DNA from: Sphingobium sp. YR768
GTDB taxonomy: Bacteria > Pseudomonadota > Alphaproteobacteria > Sphingomonadales > Sphingomonadaceae
Assembly: GCF_900111125.1 (NCBI RefSeq)
Contig: NZ_FOGE01000011.1
Span: forward strand, 62,001 to 126,000
Reading direction: 5' to 3'
DNA: 64,000 nt
Shown: in pieces, positions 2,739-40,013 of the stretch
How positions within the stretch are numbered: the first letter of the stretch is position 1
How the letters are laid out: every line of letters begins with the position of its first letter
Made by a program: the position numbers and the translations under genes
The notes under the pieces: model-generated
The model's database searches: none
Told to the model about the DNA's origin: nothing
What the model saw: the letters and a program-made list of their open reading frames with translations, nothing else

Positions 2739-3461
2739 TTAGCGCGGTGGTTGACCGTCGCCGCCCATGGGTGGCGGGCCGCCACCGGGGCGATTGCCGC
2801 GCGGCATCAAGCGGCGCATCTCTTCTGGCGACAATTCGCCATCCTTGTCGAGATCTGCCGCATCGAAGCGGGCGCGCTCATGGACCAGCAATTCGTCCAG
2901 CGACAGGCCAACATCATAATTGCTGTTGGTCTGGGCGATCAGGGCGACGTCGATCGGCTGGATCAGGTGTTCCAGAATGCCGTCTTCCGGATCGTCGCCG
3001 ACATGGGGCCGAATGACTTCGGCGATCGGTCCGTCCCGGTCGCCTCGCGCACCAGCGTCGGTCGATGCGACCGACCCCATCTGGTTCTGCCAGGCCAGAA
3101 ACTCGTCCGGGCTGATCGCGCCGTTGCGGTCCTTGTCGATGGCAGCAAAGCGCTTGCGGATGATATCGTCCCGTCGCGCCTGGATGACGGCGCGCAGTTC
3201 CTGGATCGTCACCATGTCGTCGCCATTGGCGTCGGCCTCACGGAACATGGCCGTGACGGCCTTGTCCAGCGGCGCGCGCTTGATCGGCTTCATTTCCCGC
3301 GGCTTGGACGGGCGATCGCCACCGGGAGGACCACCTTCGCCACCGGGTGGCCCGCCCATGCCACCGCCACCGCCAGGCGGGCCACCCTGGGCCAGCAACG
3401 GCGCGGAACAGAGGATAAGGGCCGCGCCGAAGAGAATCTTGCGCATCTGGACATCCGTCAT
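2739..3461 (-). CDS. Secreted EF-hand calcium-binding protein
   Basis: A 240-residue protein with a signal peptide (ends near ...SAPLLAQ, residue 25), a Gly/Pro-rich linker (26-50, PPGG repeats) and EF-hand loops. Clear loops begin at D77 (DANGDDMVTIQE), D109 (DKDRNGAISPDE) and D203 (DLDKDGELSPEE); a degenerate one lies near 179-190 (NSNYDVGLSLDE). The tail (224-239) is again Gly/Pro-rich. Periplasmic or surface calcium binding is inferred from the loops. It is directly upstream of the TonB receptor, whose barrel carries a similar PPGG stretch. An in-frame ATG at 3446 (MRKILFGAA) gives a more typical signal peptide; neither start has a strong ribosome-binding site. Confidence 0.85.
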   Translation of the reverse strand: MTDVQMRKILFGAALILCSAPLLAQGGPPGGGGGMGGPPGGEGGPPGGDRPSKPREMKPIKRAPLDKAVTAMFREADANGDDMVTIQELRAVIQARRDDIIRKRFAAIDKDRNGAISPDEFLAWQNQMGSVASTDAGARGDRDGPIAEVIRPHVGDDPEDGILEHLIQPIDVALIAQTNSNYDVGLSLDELLVHERARFDAADLDKDGELSPEEMRRLMPRGNRPGGGPPPMGGDGQPPR

Positions 3462-3501
3462 GGAGGAAGATCAAGACTGGCCTAAGCCGGTCGTCATGGC
3501 C

Positions 3502-3786
3502 TTACAGCTTGCAGCGAACCCGCTTGCCCTTGAGCAGATAGGTGTCGGAACTGGCATTGTAGCTCTTGTAGCGGCTCAGGCAGCTCTTCTGGTGCGCGCT
3601 GTAGCCGGTCTTCTTCACCCCAGTCGTCTTTGCCTGGGTCTTCTGTGCCGTCTTGGTCGCGGTTTTGGCAGTCGTTTTGGCCTGCGCACTGTGCGCCCCG
3701 TGGGTCGAGGGGGCCTGCGCCTGCACAGAGGCGGCGGCGCACAGAGCGGCGAGGGTTGCAAGGCTCAGCAATGGGGTGCGGGACAT
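3502..3786 (-). CDS. BA14K-like small secreted protein
   Basis: A 94-residue protein: signal peptide (MSRTPLLSLATLAALCAAAS...), a Lys/Thr/Ala-rich low-complexity middle, and a C-terminal CLSRYKSYNASSDTYLLKGK..C motif. That motif matches the CxxRYxSYxxxxxTYxxxxGxRxxC pattern of the BA14K family (alphaproteobacterial surface proteins reported as immunoreactive or lectin-like). The start is the ATG preceded by AAAGG at good spacing; the frame stays open upstream but without a comparable signal. The two cysteines could form a disulfide in the periplasm. The exact function is unknown. Confidence 0.72.
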   Translation of the reverse strand: MSRTPLLSLATLAALCAAASVQAQAPSTHGAHSAQAKTTAKTATKTAQKTQAKTTGVKKTGYSAHQKSCLSRYKSYNASSDTYLLKGKRVRCKL

Positions 3787-25502: not shown

Positions 25503-26558
25503 ATGCATATCCTCATTTTGCCGGGAGACGGCATCGGTCCCGAAATCAGCGCAGCGACAAGGCAGGTGCTGGAGGCGGCGGACAAGGCCTTCTCGCTCAA
25601 CCTGAGCTTTGAGGAAATGGCGATCGGCTTCGCGTCTCTGGCGGAGCAGGGGACCACCTGTCCCGACGGCGTACTGACGCGAATTCCGCAAGTGGACGGC
25701 GTAATCCTGGGGCCGGTGTCGCATTATGACTATCCCCCGCGCGATCAGGGCGGGATCAATCCTTCGGGCGAATTGCGCGTGCGCTTCAATCTGGGCGCGA
25801 ACATCCGGCCTTGCCGGTCGCGCCCGGACCTCAGCATCCTGCGCAAGCCGATGGACCTGATCATCGTGCGCGAATGCACTGAGGGCTTTTATTCCGACCG
25901 CAACATGCATGCGGGCATTCCCGAATTCATGCCCGATCCCGACACCGCCCTGTCAGTGCGCAAGATCAGCGCGCAGGCCTGTCGCCGCGTCGCCCATGCG
26001 GCTTTCCGTCTGGCACAGGGTCGCCGCCGGAAAGTGGCGGCGGTTCACAAGGCCAATGTCCTCAAAATGTCCGACGGCCTGTTCCTGCGCGAAGTGCGCG
26101 CAGTCGCCACCCATTATCCCGATGTAGAACTGGAAGAGTTGATCGTGGACGCGACCGCCGCGCTGCTCATCCGCACGCCCGATCGGTTCGATGTCATCGT
26201 CACCACCAACATGTTCGGCGATATCCTGTCGGATGAGGCGTCCGAACTATGCGGCAGTCTGGGGCTGGGCGGGTCGATCAATGCGGGTGAAGATATCTGC
26301 GTCGCGCAGGCCCAGCATGGCTCAGCGCCTGATATCGCAGGCCGCAATGTCGCCAATCCGACATCGCTCATCTTGTCGGCCGCCATGCTCCTCGACTGGC
26401 GTGGCCATCGGGATGACAATGTCGCGCTGATCGAAGCCGCCGCTGCAATCGAACGGGCGGTGGATAAGGTGCTGGATGATCCGGCGCTACGCACCGCCGA
26501 TGTGGGCGGGCAACAGGGCACGGACGCCTTCACCCGGTCGGTGATCGCCGCACTCTAA
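25503..26558 (+). CDS. Isocitrate/isopropylmalate dehydrogenase-family enzyme
   Basis: A 351-residue NAD(P)-dependent beta-decarboxylating dehydrogenase. Visible family motifs are LILPGDGIGPEI at the N-terminus, catalytic Tyr in RECTEGFYSDRN, Lys in KANVLKMSDGLF and the metal-binding NMFGDILSDEASEL with GGSINAGE. AGGAG five bases before the ATG supports the start. It lies 64 bases after the LacI gene on the same strand. The family includes isocitrate, 3-isopropylmalate, tartrate and homoisocitrate dehydrogenases; the sequence features I can read do not separate these, so the substrate is open. Confidence 0.85.
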   Translation: MHILILPGDGIGPEISAATRQVLEAADKAFSLNLSFEEMAIGFASLAEQGTTCPDGVLTRIPQVDGVILGPVSHYDYPPRDQGGINPSGELRVRFNLGANIRPCRSRPDLSILRKPMDLIIVRECTEGFYSDRNMHAGIPEFMPDPDTALSVRKISAQACRRVAHAAFRLAQGRRRKVAAVHKANVLKMSDGLFLREVRAVATHYPDVELEELIVDATAALLIRTPDRFDVIVTTNMFGDILSDEASELCGSLGLGGSINAGEDICVAQAQHGSAPDIAGRNVANPTSLILSAAMLLDWRGHRDDNVALIEAAAAIERAVDKVLDDPALRTADVGGQQGTDAFTRSVIAAL

Positions 26559-27937
26559 CCCTGCTCGGCCGCGAAGCGAACGGAGATATGCGTGCCCGGT
26601 CCCTCCGGCGCGATCTCCACGCTGGCGCCCATGCGGGACGCGGCCGATTGCACGATCGCCAGCCCCAGTCCGGTGCCGTCCGGCCCGGTCTGGGCGTTCG
26701 CGCGGAAGAAGCGTTCGAACACTTTCTCATGATGTTCGCGTGCGATGCCGGGGCCGTCATCGCCGACCGTCAGCAGGATTGCGCCGCTCTGGTGCGACAG
26801 GGTGACGGTCACCATGCCGCCGCGACGATTATAGCGAATGCCATTGTCGATCAGATTGGCGATGATCTCAAACACCAAGGTCCGATGTGCTCGGACCCGA
26901 TAGGCATGGCCATCTTCCGAATCGAGATTGAGTTCGACTTCGGCATGGATCGCCTGATTGATCAGCCGGGCGATGACGGCGGTGCTGACCTCCTTCAGAT
27001 CGACCGATTCCAGCGGCGGAGCGGCACCTGCTTCCTCGGCACGCGCCAATGCCAGCAACTGCGTCACCAGCCGTTCCAGCCGCTGCACGGCGTCTGCAAT
27101 TTCATCGAGCGCGGCGACCGATCCACGTCGCGCCAGTTCGATCTGCACGCGCAATACCGAAAGCGGCGTGCGCATCTGGTGCGAAGCATCGGCCGTGAAG
27201 CGACGCACGCCGCTGGTGGCGCGATCGAGTTGCGCCAGAAGATGGTCGAACGCCGTTGCCAGCGGCTCCAGCTCATTGGGCAGCGGCCCGGCGTCGAGGG
27301 GCGAGAAGTCGGGCCGCACGCCGGCGTCGCGCGCTTCCACCGACCGGCGTAATCGGGCCAGAGGACGCAGGCTCCATCCCAGCGCCGGGCGCAGCAGCAT
27401 CACGGCAACGCCGACCAGCGCGACTTCGCCCAGCAGCAGGGCGACGATCAACTGCCCCGCCAGTGTCTTGCGATTGTCCAGCGTCTCGGCCACTTGCACG
27501 ATGACCGGCTGTTCGATCCGGGGCAGCATCCGTTTCACCTCGGCAATACGGATGCCCTGATCGCGATAGGTCGAAAAGCGGAAGCGCGGCTGATCCACCA
27601 GCATCGTGTCGGGATCAGGCGCGGGCAGGTCGGCATAGCCGGTCAGCAATGCACGGCCTACGGCGATCCGGTAATAGACATTGTCGCGCTCATTATTTTC
27701 CAGCATGCCAAAGGCGGCGGGCGGCAGGTCCAGCGTCACTTCGCCGCGCTCCACCTGCACCGTCTCCGCGATCGCGCCCAGCGCGCCGCCCAGAACACGG
27801 TCGTTGGTCCGGCGCACCACGTCGGAAATCAGCGTTGCGCCGCCCACGCCGATGATGGCCGCCGCGCCCAGTAATGGCCCCAGCATCGCCGCCAGCAGGC
27901 GGGTGCGCAGCGCAATGGCGCGTGCCTTACCCGGCAT
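26555..27937 (-). CDS. TctE-like sensor histidine kinase
   Basis: A 460-residue membrane kinase. Two membrane segments (about 12-40 and 160-183) flank a periplasmic sensor region of the 2CSK_N type found in TctE-like kinases, followed by a HAMP-like linker. The phosphoacceptor is H253 in ASHQMRTPLSVL, then an N-box (NLIDNGIRYNRRGG), DDGPGI and GTGLGLAIV. The start overlaps the response-regulator gene by 11 bases, so the two are translationally coupled. It probably senses a carboxylate, because the divergent operon encodes a citrate-type transporter. It overlaps the previous plus-strand gene by 4 bases, tail to tail. Confidence 0.9.
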   Translation of the reverse strand: MPGKARAIALRTRLLAAMLGPLLGAAAIIGVGGATLISDVVRRTNDRVLGGALGAIAETVQVERGEVTLDLPPAAFGMLENNERDNVYYRIAVGRALLTGYADLPAPDPDTMLVDQPRFRFSTYRDQGIRIAEVKRMLPRIEQPVIVQVAETLDNRKTLAGQLIVALLLGEVALVGVAVMLLRPALGWSLRPLARLRRSVEARDAGVRPDFSPLDAGPLPNELEPLATAFDHLLAQLDRATSGVRRFTADASHQMRTPLSVLRVQIELARRGSVAALDEIADAVQRLERLVTQLLALARAEEAGAAPPLESVDLKEVSTAVIARLINQAIHAEVELNLDSEDGHAYRVRAHRTLVFEIIANLIDNGIRYNRRGGMVTVTLSHQSGAILLTVGDDGPGIAREHHEKVFERFFRANAQTGPDGTGLGLAIVQSAASRMGASVEIAPEGPGTHISVRFAAEQG

Positions 27938-28592
27938 CAAGCATATAGCCCACGCCGCGCACCGTGCGGATGCCGGGGCCATCGGGCGCCAGCTTGCCGC
28001 GCAATCGTGTGACATGCACTTCGATGGCGTTGCCGCCGACCGGCTCGTCGAACCCGAATACTTCGCCGATCAGCAATTCGCGCGGCACCACTTGCCCGGC
28101 GCGTGTCGCCAGCGACTCGAGCACCGCCAGTTCGCGTCGGCGCAGGTCGAGCGGCCGCCCGGCCACGTCGGCAGCGCCGGTTGAGCGGTTGATGGTGAGC
28201 GATCCCACGCTGATTTCCGGTGTCGGATCGCCACCGCGCCGCCGACCCAGCGCCCGCACCCGTGCTTCCAGTTCCTCGGGATCGAAGGGTTTGCGCAGAT
28301 AATCGTCGGCGCCCAGGTCCAGTCCGCGCACCCGATCGTCCAGCGCATCGCGTGCGGTCAGCATCAGCACCGGCACCTTCTCGCCGCGCCGTCGCAGTTC
28401 CGCCAGCACGGCGAATCCATCGATATCAGGCAAGCCCACGTCAAGAATCACCAGCGCATAGGGTTCGCTGCCCACGACCGACAGCGCATCTTCCCCCGTC
28501 GCGACATGGTCCACGGCGTGGCCGCCCGCGCGAAGCAGGGCGGAAATGCTGCGCGCCAGCGCAGCGTCATCTTCGATCATCAAAATCCGAAT
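27927..28592 (-). CDS. OmpR-family response regulator (TctD-like) with probable ATT start
   Basis: A receiver with D51 (VILDVGLPDIDG), LTA-R and K101 region (DDYLRKPFDP), and a winged-helix output domain ending RTVRGVGYMLDAG. The first ATG in frame (28580) would cut off beta-strand 1. Reading from ATT at 28592 gives RILMIEDDAALARS, the normal N-terminus, exactly 221 residues with D51, matching the paralogous regulator at 39348-40013 in length and in the position of the phosphorylated Asp. AGG lies six bases before the ATT. It is probably phosphorylated by the downstream kinase. Confidence 0.88.
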   Translation of the reverse strand: MRILMIEDDAALARSISALLRAGGHAVDHVATGEDALSVVGSEPYALVILDVGLPDIDGFAVLAELRRRGEKVPVLMLTARDALDDRVRGLDLGADDYLRKPFDPEELEARVRALGRRRGGDPTPEISVGSLTINRSTGAADVAGRPLDLRRRELAVLESLATRAGQVVPRELLIGEVFGFDEPVGGNAIEVHVTRLRGKLAPDGPGIRTVRGVGYMLDAG

Positions 28593-28606
28593 GGGGCACC
28601 TGGTGC

Positions 28607-28623
28607 TGAAAGGTTGATGACAG
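28607..28623 (-). promoter_or_regulatory. Shared regulatory box, copy A
   Basis: CTGTCATCAACCTTTCA on the minus strand, in the 96-base divergent region between the first response regulator and the solute-binding protein gene. It fits CTGWCATSAACCTKWCA, the pattern shared with the copies at 34505, 37796 and 40150, and has half-sites repeating every 11 bases. Confidence 0.6.
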
Positions 28624-28688
28624 CTTGGCTTCGTAACTGACCATCACATCTTATCCGACGACAGAAACGGAAAGCAAAGGACAGGGTG

Positions 28689-29768
28689 ATGCGAAGGGTT
28701 ATTCAGATACTGGCAGCGTTGGCAAGTCTGGCCATACCGGCCGCTACAGCCGTAGCGGAACGGCCGACCGGCTATCCGCGCTCCTACGATCAGTTGATTG
28801 CGGCTGCACAGACCGAACGGCAGGTCGTCGTCTATGCCAATGCCGATACGTCGGAAATGGCGCCGCTCATTCTCGCCTTCCAGCGTCGCTATCCGGGCGT
28901 CACCGTCCGCTATGCCGACCTTGGTTCCAACGAAATGTATCGGCGCTTTGTGGCGGAATCACGGGCGCGCAAGCCTTCGGCAGATCTCGTTTGGTCATCG
29001 GCCATGGATCAGCAGGTGAAGCTGATCAATGACGGTTTCGCTCAGGCCTATGCCAGCCCGGAAAAGCCGGCTCTGCCCGCATCGGCCGTCTGGAAGAATA
29101 TGGGCTTCGGCATCACCGCCGAACCGATCGCCTATGTCTATAACAAGAAGGCGATTCCCCGGCCGCCCCAGAGCCATGCCGCGCTGGAGGCGATGCTGCG
29201 CAAGGATCGCCGGGCGCTGACCGGCAAGGTTGCGACTTTCGATCCGGCCCGATCGAACACCGGCTATCTCTATCTGACGCAGGACTTTGCCATCACCGGC
29301 GACACGGGGTCGCTGGTGGAGGCAATCGCGGCGACGCGCCCGACATTGTCGATCACGACCGAACCGATGCTGCGCGGCGTTGCCGAGGGAAAGCTCAGCA
29401 TCGCCTATAATGTCATCGGGTCTTATGCGGTGGAACGGGCGCGGCGCGACCCGCGCATCGGCGTGATCTTTCCGCAGGATTACACCATCATCATGTCGCG
29501 CATCGCCTTCATCGCGCGGGAGGCGCGGCATCCCGCCGCCGCCAAACTTTTCCTCGATTTCCTGCTGTCGCGTCAGGGCCAATCCCTGCTCGCCCAGCAC
29601 AGCCTCTGGCCGGTGCGCACCGACGCCCGTGGTCGCCGCCTGCCCGCCACACAGGCGCGACCGATCCGCGTCGGCCCCCAGCTTCTCGTCAATCTCGACC
29701 GCCTGAAACAGCAGCGCTTCCTGCGCGACTGGAACGCGGCCCTTGCTTCCGGAGCCCAACAGAAATGA
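28689..29768 (+). CDS. Periplasmic solute-binding protein (FbpA/type-2 PBP fold)
   Basis: A 359-residue protein with a signal peptide (ends ...AATAVAE) and an ABC-type solute-binding fold of the iron/thiamine/polyamine class (VVVYANADTSEMAPLILAFQRRYPGVTV; ADLVWSSAMDQQVKLINDGF; GFGITAEPIAYVYN). There is no ABC permease or ATPase gene nearby, so it is an orphan binding protein. GGACAGGG precedes the ATG. It heads an operon with a porin, a CitMHS carrier and an AbrB-type protein and is divergent from a TctDE-like system; it could deliver a ligand to the carrier or to the sensor kinase. Confidence 0.83.
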   Translation: MRRVIQILAALASLAIPAATAVAERPTGYPRSYDQLIAAAQTERQVVVYANADTSEMAPLILAFQRRYPGVTVRYADLGSNEMYRRFVAESRARKPSADLVWSSAMDQQVKLINDGFAQAYASPEKPALPASAVWKNMGFGITAEPIAYVYNKKAIPRPPQSHAALEAMLRKDRRALTGKVATFDPARSNTGYLYLTQDFAITGDTGSLVEAIAATRPTLSITTEPMLRGVAEGKLSIAYNVIGSYAVERARRDPRIGVIFPQDYTIIMSRIAFIAREARHPAAAKLFLDFLLSRQGQSLLAQHSLWPVRTDARGRRLPATQARPIRVGPQLLVNLDRLKQQRFLRDWNAALASGAQQK

Positions 29769-31252
29769 ACGCCTTCCTTCTGCGTGGCGGTTGCGCCGCG
29801 ATGGCGCTGATCGCCGCCACGCCTGCTCTTGCCCAGACGCCCAGCGCGGACGAACTGGCCGCCCTCGTCAAGGCACAGGCAGCCGAAATTGCTGCGCTCA
29901 AGGCGCGCCTCGACAAGATCGAGGGGCAGGCTGTCGCGCAAAATGCTGCGCCTGTTGCTGCACAGCAGTCTGCACAACAGGTGGCGCAGCAACAGGCGAG
30001 CCAGCCTCTGGTCGTCACCCCCTTCGCGCCACAGATCGTCCCGCCCGGCCCGGCCGATATTGACGTGGCACAGGCGCGCGCCGTGGCCGCCAATCCGTCC
30101 GGCGTGACCACCGAATGGGGCGCGGGGCTGCCCGTCTTCCGCTCTGCCGACGGCGTCTTCACCTACAAGCCGCGCGGTCGCATATTGGTGGACGTCAGTT
30201 CCACCATGGGGTCCGACTATGCGGGTCGCAACACGACCACCACCGGCATGCGCGCGCTGCGTCTGGGTCTGGAAGGGGGCGTCGGCCCGCATTTCTTCTA
30301 CCAGTTCGAAACCGACTTTTCCGAAAATGAAGTCGACATCGTCACCGCTTTCATGGGCTGGCGCAATCGGCTCAGCAGCAAGGTCGACTATGACGTCCGC
30401 GTCGGCCACCTGTTCAACGATCGCGCCTTCGAAGGCAGCACCGGGTCGGACTCCACGCCCTTCCTGGAGCGCGGCGTCGTTTCCACCGCGATCATTCCGC
30501 AGCGCGGCTTTTACGGCATCGGCGTGATGGGCCGCATGTTCGGTTCCAACTGGCACGCATCGGTCAGCGTGACCGGTGATCGGGTGGATGGCGAACAAAC
30601 GACCAATGACAGCCGCACCGCCGCTTTCCGCGCGCACTGGAATCCGATCAAGACGGACAAGTCTCTCCTGCATGTCGGCGCATGGGGCTTTGACGAAGCC
30701 CTGTCGTCGGCCGCCACCACGCTGACGCGCAGCACTGTCATCGGCGGCCGCTTCAACGGCGCGGTGCGCGTGTCGACCGGCGAACTGCTCGGCGGCAAGT
30801 CGACCACCGGCTATGGCGTCGAACTGGGCGGCTATACCGGCGGCCTCTGGGTCATGGGTGAGGCCGGCCGTCGCGTGGCGCGCCTGACCGGTGGCCGCCC
30901 CGATTTCGAAAGCAAGGCGTGGAGCGTGTCCACCGGCTATTTCCTGACCGGCGAACTGCCGCCCTATAACCCGCGTCTCGGCAGCTTCGGCCAGCCCAAT
31001 GTCCTCGACCCCGTCCTGAACGGCGGATCGGGGGCGATCGAACTGACCGCCCGCTATGAAAATCTGGATTATACCGACCTCGTCCTGGGTGGCGACGGCT
31101 GGGCCGCGACGCTGGGCGTGAACTGGTATCTCAACAGCTTCACCCGCATTCAGGTGAACGGCATCCACTGGCGCACCAACAACCGCGCCGGAACCTATAC
31201 CGGCAGCGACGACGGCCAGACCGTCAGCGCGCGTGTCGGCGTGACCTTCTGA
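29765..31252 (+). CDS. OprO/OprP-type porin
   Basis: A 495-residue outer-membrane porin. The signal peptide (ends ...ATPALAQ) is followed by a coiled-coil-like, Gln/Ala-rich segment (ALVKAQAAEIAALKARLDKIEG), then a beta-barrel with features of the phosphate-selective porin O/P family (GRILVDVSS, RLGLEGGVGPHFFYQFETDFSENE, RVGHLFNDRAFEG). It overlaps the binding-protein stop by four bases (ATGA). The family name does not prove phosphate transport: in this operon, with a citrate-type carrier, an anion or carboxylate pore is equally likely. Confidence 0.88.
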   Translation: MNAFLLRGGCAAMALIAATPALAQTPSADELAALVKAQAAEIAALKARLDKIEGQAVAQNAAPVAAQQSAQQVAQQQASQPLVVTPFAPQIVPPGPADIDVAQARAVAANPSGVTTEWGAGLPVFRSADGVFTYKPRGRILVDVSSTMGSDYAGRNTTTTGMRALRLGLEGGVGPHFFYQFETDFSENEVDIVTAFMGWRNRLSSKVDYDVRVGHLFNDRAFEGSTGSDSTPFLERGVVSTAIIPQRGFYGIGVMGRMFGSNWHASVSVTGDRVDGEQTTNDSRTAAFRAHWNPIKTDKSLLHVGAWGFDEALSSAATTLTRSTVIGGRFNGAVRVSTGELLGGKSTTGYGVELGGYTGGLWVMGEAGRRVARLTGGRPDFESKAWSVSTGYFLTGELPPYNPRLGSFGQPNVLDPVLNGGSGAIELTARYENLDYTDLVLGGDGWAATLGVNWYLNSFTRIQVNGIHWRTNNRAGTYTGSDDGQTVSARVGVTF

Positions 31253-31286: not shown

Positions 31287-32594
31287 ATGAACCTTGCCCT
31301 GCTCGGCTTCCTGATGGTCGCCACCTTCATGACGCTGATCATGACCAAAAAGATGACGCCGCTGGTCGCGCTGATCATCATTCCCTCGTTGTTCGGCGTC
31401 ATCGCCGGGCAGGCGGCGGGCCTTGGCGACATGATGATCGACGGCATCAAGAATCTGGCGCCGACCGGCGTCATGCTGCTGTTCGCCATCCTCTTTTTCT
31501 CGACCATGACGGATACGGGCCTGTTCGATCCGCTCGTCGGCCGACTGGTGAAGCTGGTCCATGGCGACCCGCTGCTGATCCTGCTGGGGTCGGTCGTGCT
31601 GTGCGCGATCGTCAGCCTCGATGGCGACGGGTCGACGACCTACATCATCACCTGTGCCGCCTTGCTGCCGCTGTACAAGCGGTTCGACATGAAGCGCATC
31701 TACCTCGTCTGCCTTTTGATGGTGACGAGCGGGATCATGAACCTGACCCCCTGGGGCGGCCCGACCGCCCGCGCGGCGAGCGCGCTGAAGCTGGACCCCG
31801 CCACCCTGTTCCTGCCGCTGATCCCCGGCATGATCGCGGGCCTTGCCTTCCTGCTCGGCCTCGCCTTCTGGTTCGGTATCAAGGAACGCCGTCGTCTGGG
31901 TCATGTCCATCTGCCGCAGCGTGAAGCGGTCGACATCGCCGATCTGGGCGTGTCGCAATATCCCGAAGCCCGCCGCCCGCATTTGCGCCTGTTCAACGCC
32001 GCGCTGGTAGTCGCGCTGCTCGGCCTGCTGGTCTGGGGTATTCTCCCCCTCTCGGTGCTGATGATGATCGCCTTCGCCATCGCCATGATCGTCAACTATC
32101 CCGGCGTCGCCCAACAGAAGGAACGGATCGCTGCCCATGCCGGTAACGTCTTGTCGGTCGTGTCGCTGATCTTTGCGGCGGGCATCTTCACTGGCATCCT
32201 CGGCGGCACTGGCATGGTGGAGGCCATGAGCAAGGAAGTCGTCGGCGTCATCCCGCCCGCGCTCGGGCCTTATATGGCGCCGATCACCGCCTTGCTCTCC
32301 ATGCCCTTCACCTTCTTCATCTCCAATGACGCTTTCTATTTCGGTATGCTGCCCATATTGGCGGAGGCCGGATCGCATTATGGCGTCGATCCGATGGCGA
32401 TTGCCCGCGCGTCGCTGATGGGTCAGCCGGTCCATCTGCTCAGCCCGCTGGTGCCGTCCACCTATCTGCTGGTCAGCCTGGCCGGTATCGACTTGGCCGA
32501 TCATCAGCGTTTCACGCTGTTGCCGGCGGCGGCGGTCTGCGTCGTCATGACGCTGGTCGGCATGATCGCACTGGCCTTCCCCTTCGTTGCCTGA
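31287..32594 (+). CDS. CitMHS-family citrate (metal-citrate) transporter
   Basis: A 435-residue inner-membrane carrier with about 12 hydrophobic segments. Family features include MTKKMTPLVALIIIPSLFGV, LDGDGSTTYIITCAALLPLYKRF, MNLTPWGGPTARAASAL and FFISNDAFYFGMLPILAEAG, as in CitM/CitH of Bacillus, which import citrate with divalent metal ions and protons. AAGGA precedes the ATG at eight bases. The carrier follows a solute-binding protein and porin and is close to a TctDE-like system, so uptake of citrate or a similar tricarboxylate is the coherent reading. Confidence 0.92.
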   Translation: MNLALLGFLMVATFMTLIMTKKMTPLVALIIIPSLFGVIAGQAAGLGDMMIDGIKNLAPTGVMLLFAILFFSTMTDTGLFDPLVGRLVKLVHGDPLLILLGSVVLCAIVSLDGDGSTTYIITCAALLPLYKRFDMKRIYLVCLLMVTSGIMNLTPWGGPTARAASALKLDPATLFLPLIPGMIAGLAFLLGLAFWFGIKERRRLGHVHLPQREAVDIADLGVSQYPEARRPHLRLFNAALVVALLGLLVWGILPLSVLMMIAFAIAMIVNYPGVAQQKERIAAHAGNVLSVVSLIFAAGIFTGILGGTGMVEAMSKEVVGVIPPALGPYMAPITALLSMPFTFFISNDAFYFGMLPILAEAGSHYGVDPMAIARASLMGQPVHLLSPLVPSTYLLVSLAGIDLADHQRFTLLPAAAVCVVMTLVGMIALAFPFVA

Positions 32595-33666
32595 CGGGTC
32601 GCAACCGGTCAAACACCGGGCAACGCAGAGCGCCCTCCGCTTCCTGGCAGCCATCGCTGTCGGGGCAGCGGGGGGCGCTTTGTTCCTGGAGATCGGCGCA
32701 CCCCTGCCATGGGTGCTGGGTTCCATGGCCGCCTGCGCCATCGCCAGTGTCGTGGGCCTGCCGATACAGGCATCCTCCGCCACCCGTCGCCCGATGGCGG
32801 CGGTGATCGGCGTTGTGCTGGGCAGCAGCTTTGGTCCGCACCTCTTGCCGCAGGCGCGCGACTGGATCATTCCGCTCCTCGCCTTGCCCTTCTTCCTGGC
32901 CAGCGCGGCGCTGCTATGCGTCACCTATTTCCGCAGGGTCGCAAAGTTCGACCCCGCCACCGCCTATTTCGCCGGCATGCCCGGCGGCATCGCCGAAATG
33001 GTGGTGATGGGTGCAGAGCGGGGCGCGGACGAACGCACCATCGGCCTTATCCACGGCGCGCGCATCTTCTTCGTTGTCTTCATCCTGCCCTTCCTCATTC
33101 GGCTGGACCATGGCCCGGTCGCCATCGCGCCAACGGCGGCCGTCACCGGCGAGGTGGTGGCGGACTGGTCGCTCCTGCTATGGGTCGGGGGGTGCGTGGC
33201 GCTGGGCCTGTTTCTGGGCAAGCTTCTGCGCCTGCCTGCCTGGCATCTCGTCGGTCCGCTGGCCGTCAGCGCGGCCGTACATATGAGCGGCCTTGCCGAT
33301 TTTCGCATCCCCGGTTGGGCGCTGGCCGCCGCACAAGTCGGCCTTGGCGCGACCATTGGTTGCCGCTTCGTCGGCCTCACAATGAAGGCTTTGCTGCACA
33401 CCCTGGCGCTGGCGGCGGGATCGACGCTGATCCTGCTGGCCGTCACCTTCGCCTGGGCGGCGGGTATCGGCGCCTTGACCGGCCTTGATCCGGTGCTGCT
33501 GACGCTGGCCTATTCGCCCGGCGGCCTTGCCGAAATGAGCATGGTGGCGCTCAGTCTGGCGCTGGAGCCGGGCGTGGTCATCATCCATCACCTGACCCGC
33601 GTGGTGCTGGTCCTGATCGCGGCGCCGCTGGGTTTCAGGACGCTGGCCCGTCAGCCTATCGACTGA
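32587..33666 (+). CDS. AbrB-family membrane protein (PF05145 type)
   Basis: A 359-residue hydrophobic protein made of two similar halves, each with GxPLPWVLGSM/GLxGAT-like glycine-rich helices and a FDPATAYFAGMPGGIAEM motif repeated as LLTLAYSPGGLAEMS in the second half. This is the bacterial 'AbrB' membrane family (regulator of aidB in E. coli), thought to be a transporter and unrelated to the Bacillus DNA-binding AbrB. The likely start is TTG at 32587, overlapping the CitMHS stop by eight bases, which implies translational coupling. It may cooperate with the carrier, but the role is unproven. Confidence 0.82.
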   Translation: MPDGSQPVKHRATQSALRFLAAIAVGAAGGALFLEIGAPLPWVLGSMAACAIASVVGLPIQASSATRRPMAAVIGVVLGSSFGPHLLPQARDWIIPLLALPFFLASAALLCVTYFRRVAKFDPATAYFAGMPGGIAEMVVMGAERGADERTIGLIHGARIFFVVFILPFLIRLDHGPVAIAPTAAVTGEVVADWSLLLWVGGCVALGLFLGKLLRLPAWHLVGPLAVSAAVHMSGLADFRIPGWALAAAQVGLGATIGCRFVGLTMKALLHTLALAAGSTLILLAVTFAWAAGIGALTGLDPVLLTLAYSPGGLAEMSMVALSLALEPGVVIIHHLTRVVLVLIAAPLGFRTLARQPID

Positions 33667-33725: not shown

Positions 33726-34379
33726 TCAGAAGAGCGTGATCAGACCCGTCACCGGATCGATCGCGCCTTCATAGATCATCTTGCCCGCGACATAGAGGAT
33801 CACCAGCAGGCCGAAATAGGCGATCGCCCGATAACGTTCGATCACGCGGGCCAGCAAATTCGCGGCAATACCCATCAGGGCGACCGACAGGATCAGGCCC
33901 ACGATCAGGATGCCGGGATGTTCCCGCGCTGCGCCGGCTACCGCCAGCACATTGTCCAGGCTCATCGACACGTCGGCAATCGCGACGGCCCAAGCCGCTT
34001 GCGCAAAGCCCTTGGGCGCAGCCTTTCCGGCGATATCCTCACCATCTTCGGCTTCGCCACCCGAACGCAGCTCCCGCCACATCTTCCATGCGACCCAGAC
34101 CAGCAGCAGGCCACCGGCGAAGACCAGTCCGACCAGCTGCATCAGTTCCGTGACGACCAGGGCAAAGGCGATCCGTAGGACCAGCGCAGCGATCACGCCG
34201 ATCGCGATCACCTTGCGCCGCGACGCGGCTGGCAGACCGGCGGCCAATGCGCCGACGACGATGGCATTGTCCGCCGCCAGCATGATGTCGATCAGCACGA
34301 CCTGACCGAAAGCGGCCAGCGCGGATGGAGAGCCGAGATTGGAAAAATCGGCCACGATATGGGTCCAGATGTCGTTCAT
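33726..34379 (-). CDS. TerC-family integral membrane protein
   Basis: A 217-residue protein with about seven membrane helices. The two acidic TerC motifs are present: LIDIMLAADNAIVVGALAAGLP and AIADVSMSLDNVLAVAGAA, with a short charged loop between (SGGEAEDGEDIAGK). Family members are linked to tellurite resistance and to manganese or calcium export. GAGAGGATTT precedes the chosen ATG; the frame continues upstream without a better start. The 228-base upstream region contains a copy of the shared box but no riboswitch that I can recognise. Confidence 0.9.
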   Translation of the reverse strand: MNDIWTHIVADFSNLGSPSALAAFGQVVLIDIMLAADNAIVVGALAAGLPAASRRKVIAIGVIAALVLRIAFALVVTELMQLVGLVFAGGLLLVWVAWKMWRELRSGGEAEDGEDIAGKAAPKGFAQAAWAVAIADVSMSLDNVLAVAGAAREHPGILIVGLILSVALMGIAANLLARVIERYRAIAYFGLLVILYVAGKMIYEGAIDPVTGLITLF

Positions 34380-34504: not shown

Positions 34505-34521
34505 CTGTCATCAACCTTTCA
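34505..34521 (+). promoter_or_regulatory. Shared regulatory box, copy B (TerC promoter region)
   Basis: CTGTCATCAACCTTTCA, identical to copy A. The identity to copy A extends over 21 bases (34502-34522) although the surrounding sequence is unrelated. It lies about 125 bases upstream of the TerC start. The rest of 34380-34607 shows no gene and no secure promoter. Confidence 0.6.
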
Positions 34522-37840: not shown

Positions 37841-39337
37841 TCAGGCGATGTCGGACCGGAAACGGACGATGGCGCACAAGCCCTTGCCCGATCGCCCGTC
37901 CTCAAGGCTGATCGTCGCGCCCATCCGTTCGGCGATGGCGCGGGCGATCGGCAGGCCCAGTCCGGTTCCGGCGGGCGCCTTGCGATTGGGGATGCGATAG
38001 AAACGCTCCCACACCTTTTCCCGTTCGGCCGCCGAAATGCCGGGTCCATCATCGTCGATCGCGACGATGGCGCCCTCTTCATCGCGATCGACATGCACCG
38101 AAACGCTGCCACCCGGACGATTGTAGCGGATGGCATTGTCGAGCAGATTGCCGATCAGCTCGGCCGCCAGTGTTGGCTGGCCCACCGCCATGACCGGGCC
38201 TTCCACGCTCTTGTCATAGCCGATGTCGATGTCGGCCGGCGCCTGCGCCGCCCGCTCTCCAGTCACGGTGGCGGCCACCTCCGCCAAGTCGAAGGGGCGC
38301 AATTGCGTGCCGACCTGATCCTCGCTGCGGGCGAGGGCAATCAGCTGGCGCAGCAATTGCTCCAGCGAATCGATGGCATGGGGAATGTCCTGCAAGGCCG
38401 CCTTGCCCTGCGGCGACGTCGGGCCATAGCGATCGAGCACGTCCAGTTGCACCCGCGCGACGGCCAGCGGCGTGCGCATCTGGTGCGATGCATTGGACGT
38501 AAACTGCCGCAGCGAGTCGGTCGCCCTTTCCAGCCGCGCCATCAGCCCGTTGAAGGCCGCAACGAAAGGCTGCATCTCGACCGGCCCAGTTTCTGGTGTT
38601 TCCAGCCGGAACGTCGCTGGCGCATCGCGTCGTGCCATATCGACCTGCTGGGTGAGATCCACCAGCGGGCGCAACCCCCATTCGATCGCCCACCAGAACA
38701 GCATGCCGGTCAGGATCAGGGCGGCCAGCCCCGCCAGCACCACCTGTTGCAGGAAGGTGCGTTCATAGGCGGCGCGATCGTCCATATAGTCGGCGACCTG
38801 AATCGCGATCAGCTCCGTGTTGCCCTGCGCCCGGCGCACCTCCGTCGCGATCCGCGCAGGCTTCCCGTGCAGCGTGCCACTGCGCAGATAGGCCGCCTGC
38901 GTGACCTGACGGGCGTCAGCAGGGTCAAGATAGCCCCGCACCATGCGGTTTTCGCGATAGGCGTTGACGAACGTGGTTGGCTTGTGCCGGTCGAGCACGC
39001 CATCCCATGTCGCGCGATAATCGCCGGGCGGCAGCAAAGCCGGGTCGCCCGCGATCAGGGTCTGTCCGCGATAGACGCTGTAGAGGACCACGGGCCGCGC
39101 ACGCCGTCGCAACAGGTGGATCACCAGCGGCACCAGTCGTTCCCGGTCGGCCGCCGGGCTGTTGTAAGCCAGACTGAGCGTCCGCACCGATCCGATCAGC
39201 ACCCGGTCGACTGTATTGGCTTCGGTGTCATGCGTGACCAGCGCCGTGATGACGCAGAACAGCAGCACCAGCGCCGCCAGCGGCATCAATACCGCGCCGG
39301 TCAGGCGAAGCCGGAGGGAATGGGGGGATTGCCGCAT
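37841..39337 (-). CDS. TctE-like sensor histidine kinase (second system)
   Basis: A 498-residue membrane kinase, paralogous in layout to the one at 26555-27937. Membrane segments are at about 13-35 and 198-218, with a 2CSK_N-type periplasmic sensor between them. The phosphoacceptor is H285 in ASHQMRTPLAVA; N-box NLLDNAIRYNRPGG, DDDGPGI and GTGLGLPIARA follow. The sensor domain is longer than in the first kinase and its sequence differs, so a different ligand is likely. The gene starts 10 bases after its response regulator. Confidence 0.91.
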   Translation of the reverse strand: MRQSPHSLRLRLTGAVLMPLAALVLLFCVITALVTHDTEANTVDRVLIGSVRTLSLAYNSPAADRERLVPLVIHLLRRRARPVVLYSVYRGQTLIAGDPALLPPGDYRATWDGVLDRHKPTTFVNAYRENRMVRGYLDPADARQVTQAAYLRSGTLHGKPARIATEVRRAQGNTELIAIQVADYMDDRAAYERTFLQQVVLAGLAALILTGMLFWWAIEWGLRPLVDLTQQVDMARRDAPATFRLETPETGPVEMQPFVAAFNGLMARLERATDSLRQFTSNASHQMRTPLAVARVQLDVLDRYGPTSPQGKAALQDIPHAIDSLEQLLRQLIALARSEDQVGTQLRPFDLAEVAATVTGERAAQAPADIDIGYDKSVEGPVMAVGQPTLAAELIGNLLDNAIRYNRPGGSVSVHVDRDEEGAIVAIDDDGPGISAAEREKVWERFYRIPNRKAPAGTGLGLPIARAIAERMGATISLEDGRSGKGLCAIVRFRSDIA

Positions 39338-39347
39338 TAAAGGATCG

Positions 39348-40013
39348 TCAGGCCGCTTCGATCATGTAGCCAAGGCCCCGGATCGTGCGGATCGCCGGGC
39401 CGGACGGCTGCAACTTCTTGCGCAGGCGGCCGACATAGACTTCCAGCGCATTGGGCGTCACCGCATCGTCGAAATTGAAGATTTCGGCCGACAGGCGCTC
39501 CTTGGCCACGACCTTGCCGGGCCGTCCCATCAACGTCTCCAGCACGGCTAGTTCGCGGCGGCGCAGGTCCAGTATCACATCGTCCAGATAGACCGTCCGG
39601 CTTGACCGGTCAAAGGTCAGCGCGCCGATGCGCATCACCGGATCGGGCGATCCCTGACTGCGGCGGACCAGCGCCCGAATACGCGATTCCAGTTCGCGCG
39701 GGTCGAAGGGCTTGGCCATATAATCGACGGCGCCCCGGTCCAGCCCGTTGATCCGGTCGTCGATCATGTCGCGTGCCGTCAGGATCAGGATCGGCGTTGC
39801 CGCGCCGCGCGCGCGCAACTGGCTCAGCACGTCCAGCCCGTCCATGTCCGGCAGGCCCAGATCCAGCACGATCGCGCAATAGGGTTCCTGGCTCGCCAGT
39901 CGCAATGCCTCTTCGCCGCTGGTCAATATGTCGACGGCAAAACCAGCTGCTTCCAGCGATGCGACCATGCCGCGCGCCAGCCGCTCATCATCTTCCACCA
40001 GCAACAACCGCAT
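39348..40013 (-). CDS. OmpR-family response regulator (second system)
   Basis: A 221-residue regulator: MRLLLVEDDERLARG, phosphoacceptor D51 (IVLDLGLPDMDG), LTARD, K101 (DYMAKPFDP), and a winged-helix domain ending RTIRGLGYMIEAA. GGAG upstream of the ATG at 40013 decides the start against a longer frame. It is paralogous to the regulator at 27927-28592 (same length, same motif positions). It heads a minus-strand run with the kinase, CapA, M28 peptidase and TerC genes, and a shared box lies about 137 bases upstream. Confidence 0.93.
   Translation of the reverse strand: MRLLLVEDDERLARGMVASLEAAGFAVDILTSGEEALRLASQEPYCAIVLDLGLPDMDGLDVLSQLRARGAATPILILTARDMIDDRINGLDRGAVDYMAKPFDPRELESRIRALVRRSQGSPDPVMRIGALTFDRSSRTVYLDDVILDLRRRELAVLETLMGRPGKVVAKERLSAEIFNFDDAVTPNALEVYVGRLRKKLQPSGPAIRTIRGLGYMIEAA

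Follow-up and report, generated by a model that had tools for sequence, protein, structure and literature searches.

A conserved ATT codon as the probable translation start of an OmpR-family response regulator in the Sphingobium clade

The DNA analysed was a stretch of 64,000 nucleotides from Sphingobium sp. YR768 (contig NZ_FOGE01000011.1, positions 62,001 to 126,000 of the forward strand), called the window here, and all coordinates refer to it. A response regulator and an overlapping sensor kinase were located in the window together with the following genes.

26555-27937, minus strand: sensor histidine kinase with 2CSK_N, HAMP, HisKA and HATPase_c domains (start read by eye)
27927-28592, minus strand: PmrA/TctD/QseB-like response regulator of the OmpR family (221 aa; Response_reg and Trans_reg_C domains)
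28689-29768, plus strand: extracellular solute-binding protein, divergent (start read by eye)
29765-31252, plus strand: Porin_O_P family porin
31287-32594, plus strand: CitMHS citrate transporter family protein
32587-33666, plus strand: AbrB-family (PF05145) membrane protein
33726-34379, minus strand: TerC/YjbE-family membrane protein (start inferred; YjbE name taken from a Sphingomonas plasmid)
37841-40013, minus strand: another such pair of regulator and 2CSK_N kinase, its regulator with an ordinary ATG start

The kinase ATG at 27937 overlapped the end of the regulator by 11 bases, and a similar gene order, with the names CitMHS and YjbE, was found on a Sphingomonas plasmid. The regulator showed the receiver with a phosphorylatable Asp (PF00072, 99.1 bits) and the winged-helix domain (PF00486, 69 bits) that characterize the OmpR family. 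The best NCBIfam models were PmrA, TctD and QseB; the cut-offs of all three were missed (200.1 against the equivalog cut-off of 337 for TctD, NF012023), and the protein is therefore named TctD/QseB-like only.

The beginning of the regulator gene contained the following elements.

28578-28580, minus strand: ATG, codon 5, rejected start
28581-28583, minus strand: TTG, codon 4, rival start
28590-28592, minus strand: ATT, codon 1, proposed translation start
28597-28601, minus strand: AGGTG, Shine-Dalgarno-like
28644-28646, minus strand: in-frame TGA that closes the frame upstream of ATT

Between the TGA at 28646-28644 and the ATT at 28592-28590 lay 17 sense codons in the window, and none of them was ATG, GTG, TTG or CTG, which agreed with the sequence-only reading that no other start lies in frame before the ATT. 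After ATT the gene read CGG ATT TTG (28583) ATG (28580) ATC GAA GAT GAC and ended with TAA at 27929-27927, giving 221 residues, the same length as its paralogue at 39348-40013 read from an ATG, as had been claimed. The phosphorylated Asp was correctly assigned to residue 51, and D51 was an invariant column in the alignment of 23 relatives. The AGG at 28601-28599 was indeed separated from ATT by 6 bases, compared with 15 bases to TTG 28583. In the AlphaFold model (mean pLDDT 87.6) beta-strand 1 comprised residues 2-6, so that the strand would be shortened by a start at TTG (residue 4) or at ATG (residue 5), much as had been stated for both codons. At 28644-28649 (minus strand) an ATG stood directly before the in-frame TGA, forming a start-stop pair 18-19 codons upstream of ATT, and this ATG was left open in some relatives.

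To compare the start codon among orthologues, a DNA-level search was made of 94 genomes of the genus (counting that of the window), and 23 orthologues beside the window were obtained. Their identity was 82-95% along almost the full length of the query; the match that came next by score had 69%. The aligned codon was ATT in 22 of these and ATC in one. ATT was also present in the Sphingobium-titled records and two unplaced Proteobacteria MAGs, and ATC in Novosphingobium sp. Leaf2; Sphingomonas, Croceibacterium and a few others had ATG, GTG or TTG exactly at this codon, and the family-level genomes (L120-L128) agreed with the pattern. The family-level sample was 397 genomes from a larger family, in which other lineages may exist. 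The named-genome loci were the best 80 of 362 relatives; 47 were used and 33 with 36-56% identity (L084, L085, L087-L117) were not. Loci L032-L037 and L129-L132 were excluded as paralogues, the latter four having ATG at the codon just ahead of the aligned one; L118 and L119 were left out because they duplicate the window and G001. Locus L080, used until the tree was built, was then dropped from the tree and all counts; this orthologue of Sphingomonas sp. H160509 (match 3001-3665) had a broken frame with 525 bases to the first stop, which points to a pseudogene or else to a faulty assembly. Merging 16 identical coding sequences reduced the 79 usable loci to 63 distinct sequences.

The aligned start codon in the 63 sequences was ATG in 26, ATT in 23, TTG in 8, GTG in 4 and ATC in 2. 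The distribution followed a single division: all 25 sequences of the clade made up of the window's genus and Novosphingobium sp. Leaf2 were near-cognate (ATT 23, ATC 2), and all 38 outside it had ATG, TTG or GTG (26, 8 and 4). Codon 1 is therefore the usual start position of the family. The comparison with orthologues that the sequence-only reading had called for thus returned ordinary starts at the same codon everywhere outside the clade and ATG in 0 of 25 sequences inside. The ATG at 28580, at which orthologues might have been found to start, was rejected as a start, because three of the 25 clade sequences have ATC there. Five plasmid loci (L136, L197-L200), read singly and left uncounted, had ATT in Sphingobium, ATG in Novosphingobium and Sphingomonas, and GTG and TTG in two Azospirillum.

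A gene tree of the 63 sequences was built with codons 1-4 left out. The 25 ATT/ATC sequences formed one clade (support 100/99), and the difference between the ATT/ATC class and the ATG/GTG/TTG class required a single change on the tree, with two further separate changes for the two ATC sequences; throughout the clade only ATT and ATC were kept at codon 1. On the same tree, L070 (RPSH01000003.1, titled Bacillus sp.) and L078 (JAGSNX010000001.1, titled Microvirga sp.) grouped closely with Sphingomonas L081 and L074, and these two assemblies are probably mislabelled or contaminated.

Two other genes were used as controls. In all 14 same-genus loci of the regulator's paralogue the aligned codon was ATG, indicating that ATT is not an artefact of the method. 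The infC gene read ATA at its apparent start, with AGGAG eight bases ahead of it, in all 18 same-genus loci that gave a reading (19 genomes; the incomplete infC of L166 was unread and order-level infC loci were outside the count), and an in-frame ATG followed four codons later. The infC of this lineage (L135 at about 1471-1473, L147 and L150-L165) thus appears to start with ATA, a second apparent conserved near-cognate start, and with such an infC an IF3-based discrimination is plausible in the lineage.

The main rival of ATT is TTG 28583 (codon 4), which would give a protein of 218 residues with ATT as a relic of the ancestral start, or, in a variant, both codons would be used. TTG is a common start codon; it did not vary among the 25 clade sequences, with zero inferred changes, while most orthologues outside had CTG and the conserved Leu columns of the gene were mostly mainly CTG. 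The 218-residue form still matched Response_reg with 96.4 bits, compared with 99.1 bits for the 221-residue form, although residues 2-3 of beta-strand 1 would be removed. The Shine-Dalgarno duplex energy was also equal for both (mean -6.1 kcal/mol); since the same AGGTG motif falls in both search windows, energy cannot separate ATT from TTG and only the spacing does, in favour of ATT. The codons before TTG also told against it, through the ordinary start at codon 1 in the 38 outside orthologues and the pattern of substitution inside the clade. The branches of the clade summed to 2.07 changes per column, and 92 fourfold sites changed 4.4 times on average. Over codons 1-3 six changes were inferred, every one at the third position: two at codon 1, between T and C only, three at codon 2 and one at codon 3, the last four all synonymous, while no first- or second-base change occurred in codons 1-9. 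If position were indifferent, four synonymous changes in codons 2-3 would have a probability of (1/3)^4 = 0.012. Such third-position, synonymous-only changes indicate that codons 1-3 are probably translated, which in the window requires the ATT start. A start at TTG is accordingly judged unlikely.

The retention of T at the third base of codon 1 was compared with a neutral simulation, a crude one (F81 on the gene tree, with the rate picked by eye to fit the fourfold sites). For simulated third positions that began as T, G was missing from all 25 tips in 1.7% and at least 23 tips had T in 0.3%, so that such constancy with no G would be rare under neutrality; at a lower rate the two values were 7.4% and 4.3%, respectively; when only Ile codons were allowed, at least 23 T occurred in 0.6%, 5.4% and 32% of runs as the rate fell. 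The bases preceding ATT were well conserved in the clade as well, and part of the conservation around codon 1 may be at the DNA level.

The initiation context of ATT was examined in the same sequences. GGTG was kept in 24 of the 25 clade sequences (absent from L030); the AGGTG is a short match of about -6 kcal/mol. The start region was less folded in the clade than in the 38 ordinary-start orthologues, with mean values of -6.8 and -9.1 kcal/mol. Codons 3-5 (28578-28586, minus strand) were AT-rich in the ATT/ATC clade, with 22% G+C compared with 44% in the ordinary-start orthologues. A weakly structured start may account for the AT-rich codons 3-5 and the invariant TTG, and is the only explanation we can offer for them. 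Translational coupling through a short overlapping upstream frame (GTG 28599, out of frame) was also considered and dropped, as it was unconserved; by eye, the equivalent frame ended at TGATG in L026 and L030 and not in the window.

Upstream of the regulator a putative operator was recognized, which occurred in two places.

28607-28622, minus strand: TGTCATCAACCTTTCA, 11-bp direct repeat TGTCA/TTTCA, putative operator, ending 14 bases before ATT
34506-34521, plus strand: second copy, upstream of the TerC-family gene (exact pattern match)

Nowhere else in the genome was TGTCANNNNCCTTTCA matched exactly, and the reversed control pattern had zero matches there. Among the genus genomes, by hand tally, the operator was present in 24 of the 24 that bear the orthologue, twice in 22, and in 15 of the 70 without it, and the two copies lay 4.7-6.0 kb apart in 19 of the 22 two-copy genomes; the control pattern occurred three times in all 94. 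With one mismatch allowed, every one of the 63 distinct orthologue sequences carried a site of this form ahead of the gene, 9-51 bases before the start. TGTCATCAACCTTTCA probably serves as the binding site of the regulator itself, and the two copies suggest a small dedicated regulon.

The operator allows another view of ATT, as part of a promoter with its -10 element on or near ATT, transcription beginning inside the gene and a downstream start being forced. TGTCA-N6-TTTCA resembles a PhoB box, and the E. coli spacing from such an activator site, here ending 14 bases upstream of ATT, would put the -10 near ATT. However, several ATG orthologues had the site 9 bases before the start, with no room for a -10 and an ATG-containing transcript, and the variable C/T base before ATT speaks against this view as well. 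A scan of 28540-28760 for promoters of the sigma-70 type found nothing. A promoter role that displaces the start is considered very improbable.

A start upstream of ATT, giving a longer protein, fitted poorly too. In-frame ATG, GTG or TTG was present upstream in 12 of the 25 clade members, eight of them having it at codon -19 and five at codon -26 (two members in both), and in two of the frames no stop was reached within 400 bases. By contrast, 13 of the 25, the window included, had no ATG, GTG, TTG or CTG before the upstream in-frame stop; in the window codon -19 was ATG too, but TGA came straight after. Small insertions or deletions in L026 and L030 shifted the upstream frame, and an extension would cross the operator, so that an upstream start is scarcely credible. 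Misreading of an ATG by sequencing or assembly, the check proposed for 28590-28592, was excluded for practical purposes, because ATT or ATC recurred in independently sequenced genomes (ATT 23 and ATC 2 in 25 distinct clade sequences) and in a complete Sphingobium sp. V4 plasmid, and no correction to ATG is indicated.

Taken together, the orthologue comparison made the ATT at 28592 the best-supported start of this OmpR-family regulator, in line with what had been proposed from the sequence. We put at roughly 80% the reading that the regulator is translated from ATT and that the ordinary start changed to ATT once in the ancestor of the Sphingobium clade; a dose of regulator held low and fixed would follow from it. 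In this scheme the start of a TctD/QseB-like regulator would have become ATT in the common ancestor and ATC twice later, the codon staying near-cognate ever since. The initiator tRNA would pair imperfectly with AUU and IF3 would reject most such complexes, a discrimination that is plausible at this codon; a small fraction would pass by virtue of the correctly spaced AGGUG and the AU-rich, weakly structured start. ATT would thereby perhaps cap translation and keep the regulator scarce, and possibly also the overlapping downstream kinase. The phosphorylated regulator would bind TGTCA-N6-TTTCA and turn on the divergent binding protein, porin and CitMHS genes, the inducing signal presumably being citrate or a similar acid. 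It is a more speculative suggestion, which we hold with considerable doubt, that AUU serves as a regulatory device: the dose of the two-component system would be tied to IF3 and the state of the ribosomes, growth status would set the gain of the citrate response, and the AU-rich codons 3-5 and AGGUG would have evolved to tune the leak.

Judged from the neighbouring CitMHS, porin and binding protein genes, the regulator probably switches on citrate uptake, and the open-access literature searched yielded no publication about a citrate two-component system in Sphingobium. In Pseudomonas aeruginosa, citrate is reported to bring about the induction of opdH-tctABC by TctED (PMC10865840), and that system likewise combines a two-component pair (TctD-TctE), a porin (OpdH) and a carboxylate transporter (TctABC). 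In Sphingobium the genes are direct neighbours and the kinase has 2CSK_N; a CitMHS carrier and a Porin_O_P porin stand in place of TctABC and OpdH, the ligand is here presumed, and the regulator falls below the TctD model cut-off.

The near-cognate start itself has counterparts in other genes. Like infC (AUU/AUA), the regulator would be a translationally controlled gene with a near-cognate start; infC is autoregulated through IF3, whereas any IF3 control of the regulator would be one-way. The AUU start of E. coli pcnB reportedly limits its translation, to go by the title of the work of Binns and Masters in 2002, and pcnB and the regulator share an AUU start in different proteins and lineages. 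Documented cases of a conserved AUU start are, to our knowledge, few, and no response regulator with one was found in the open-access literature searched. The five variants of this family, ATG, GTG, TTG, ATT and ATC at a single codon of one regulator, offer a natural comparison, by which the effect of weak starts on two-component gain is directly testable. A gene finder restricted to ATG, GTG and TTG would shorten or extend the regulator in the clade. For Xanthomonas infC, an ATT start with peptide support is described (PMC5559785). In Staphylococcus aureus, expression from AUU and AUA starts in poor medium was about 10% of that from AUG; cvfC1 (AUU), possibly a regulator, and ccpN (AUA), a catabolite control protein, have conserved non-canonical starts, there shown to lower expression (PMC13009471). 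The S. aureus starts were demonstrated by Ribo-Ret and reporters and have extended Shine-Dalgarno pairing, whereas that of the Sphingobium regulator was recognized by sequence comparison and has AGGTG only (PMC13009471). Conserved near-cognate starts are already known elsewhere, and the Sphingobium regulator would be a further case.
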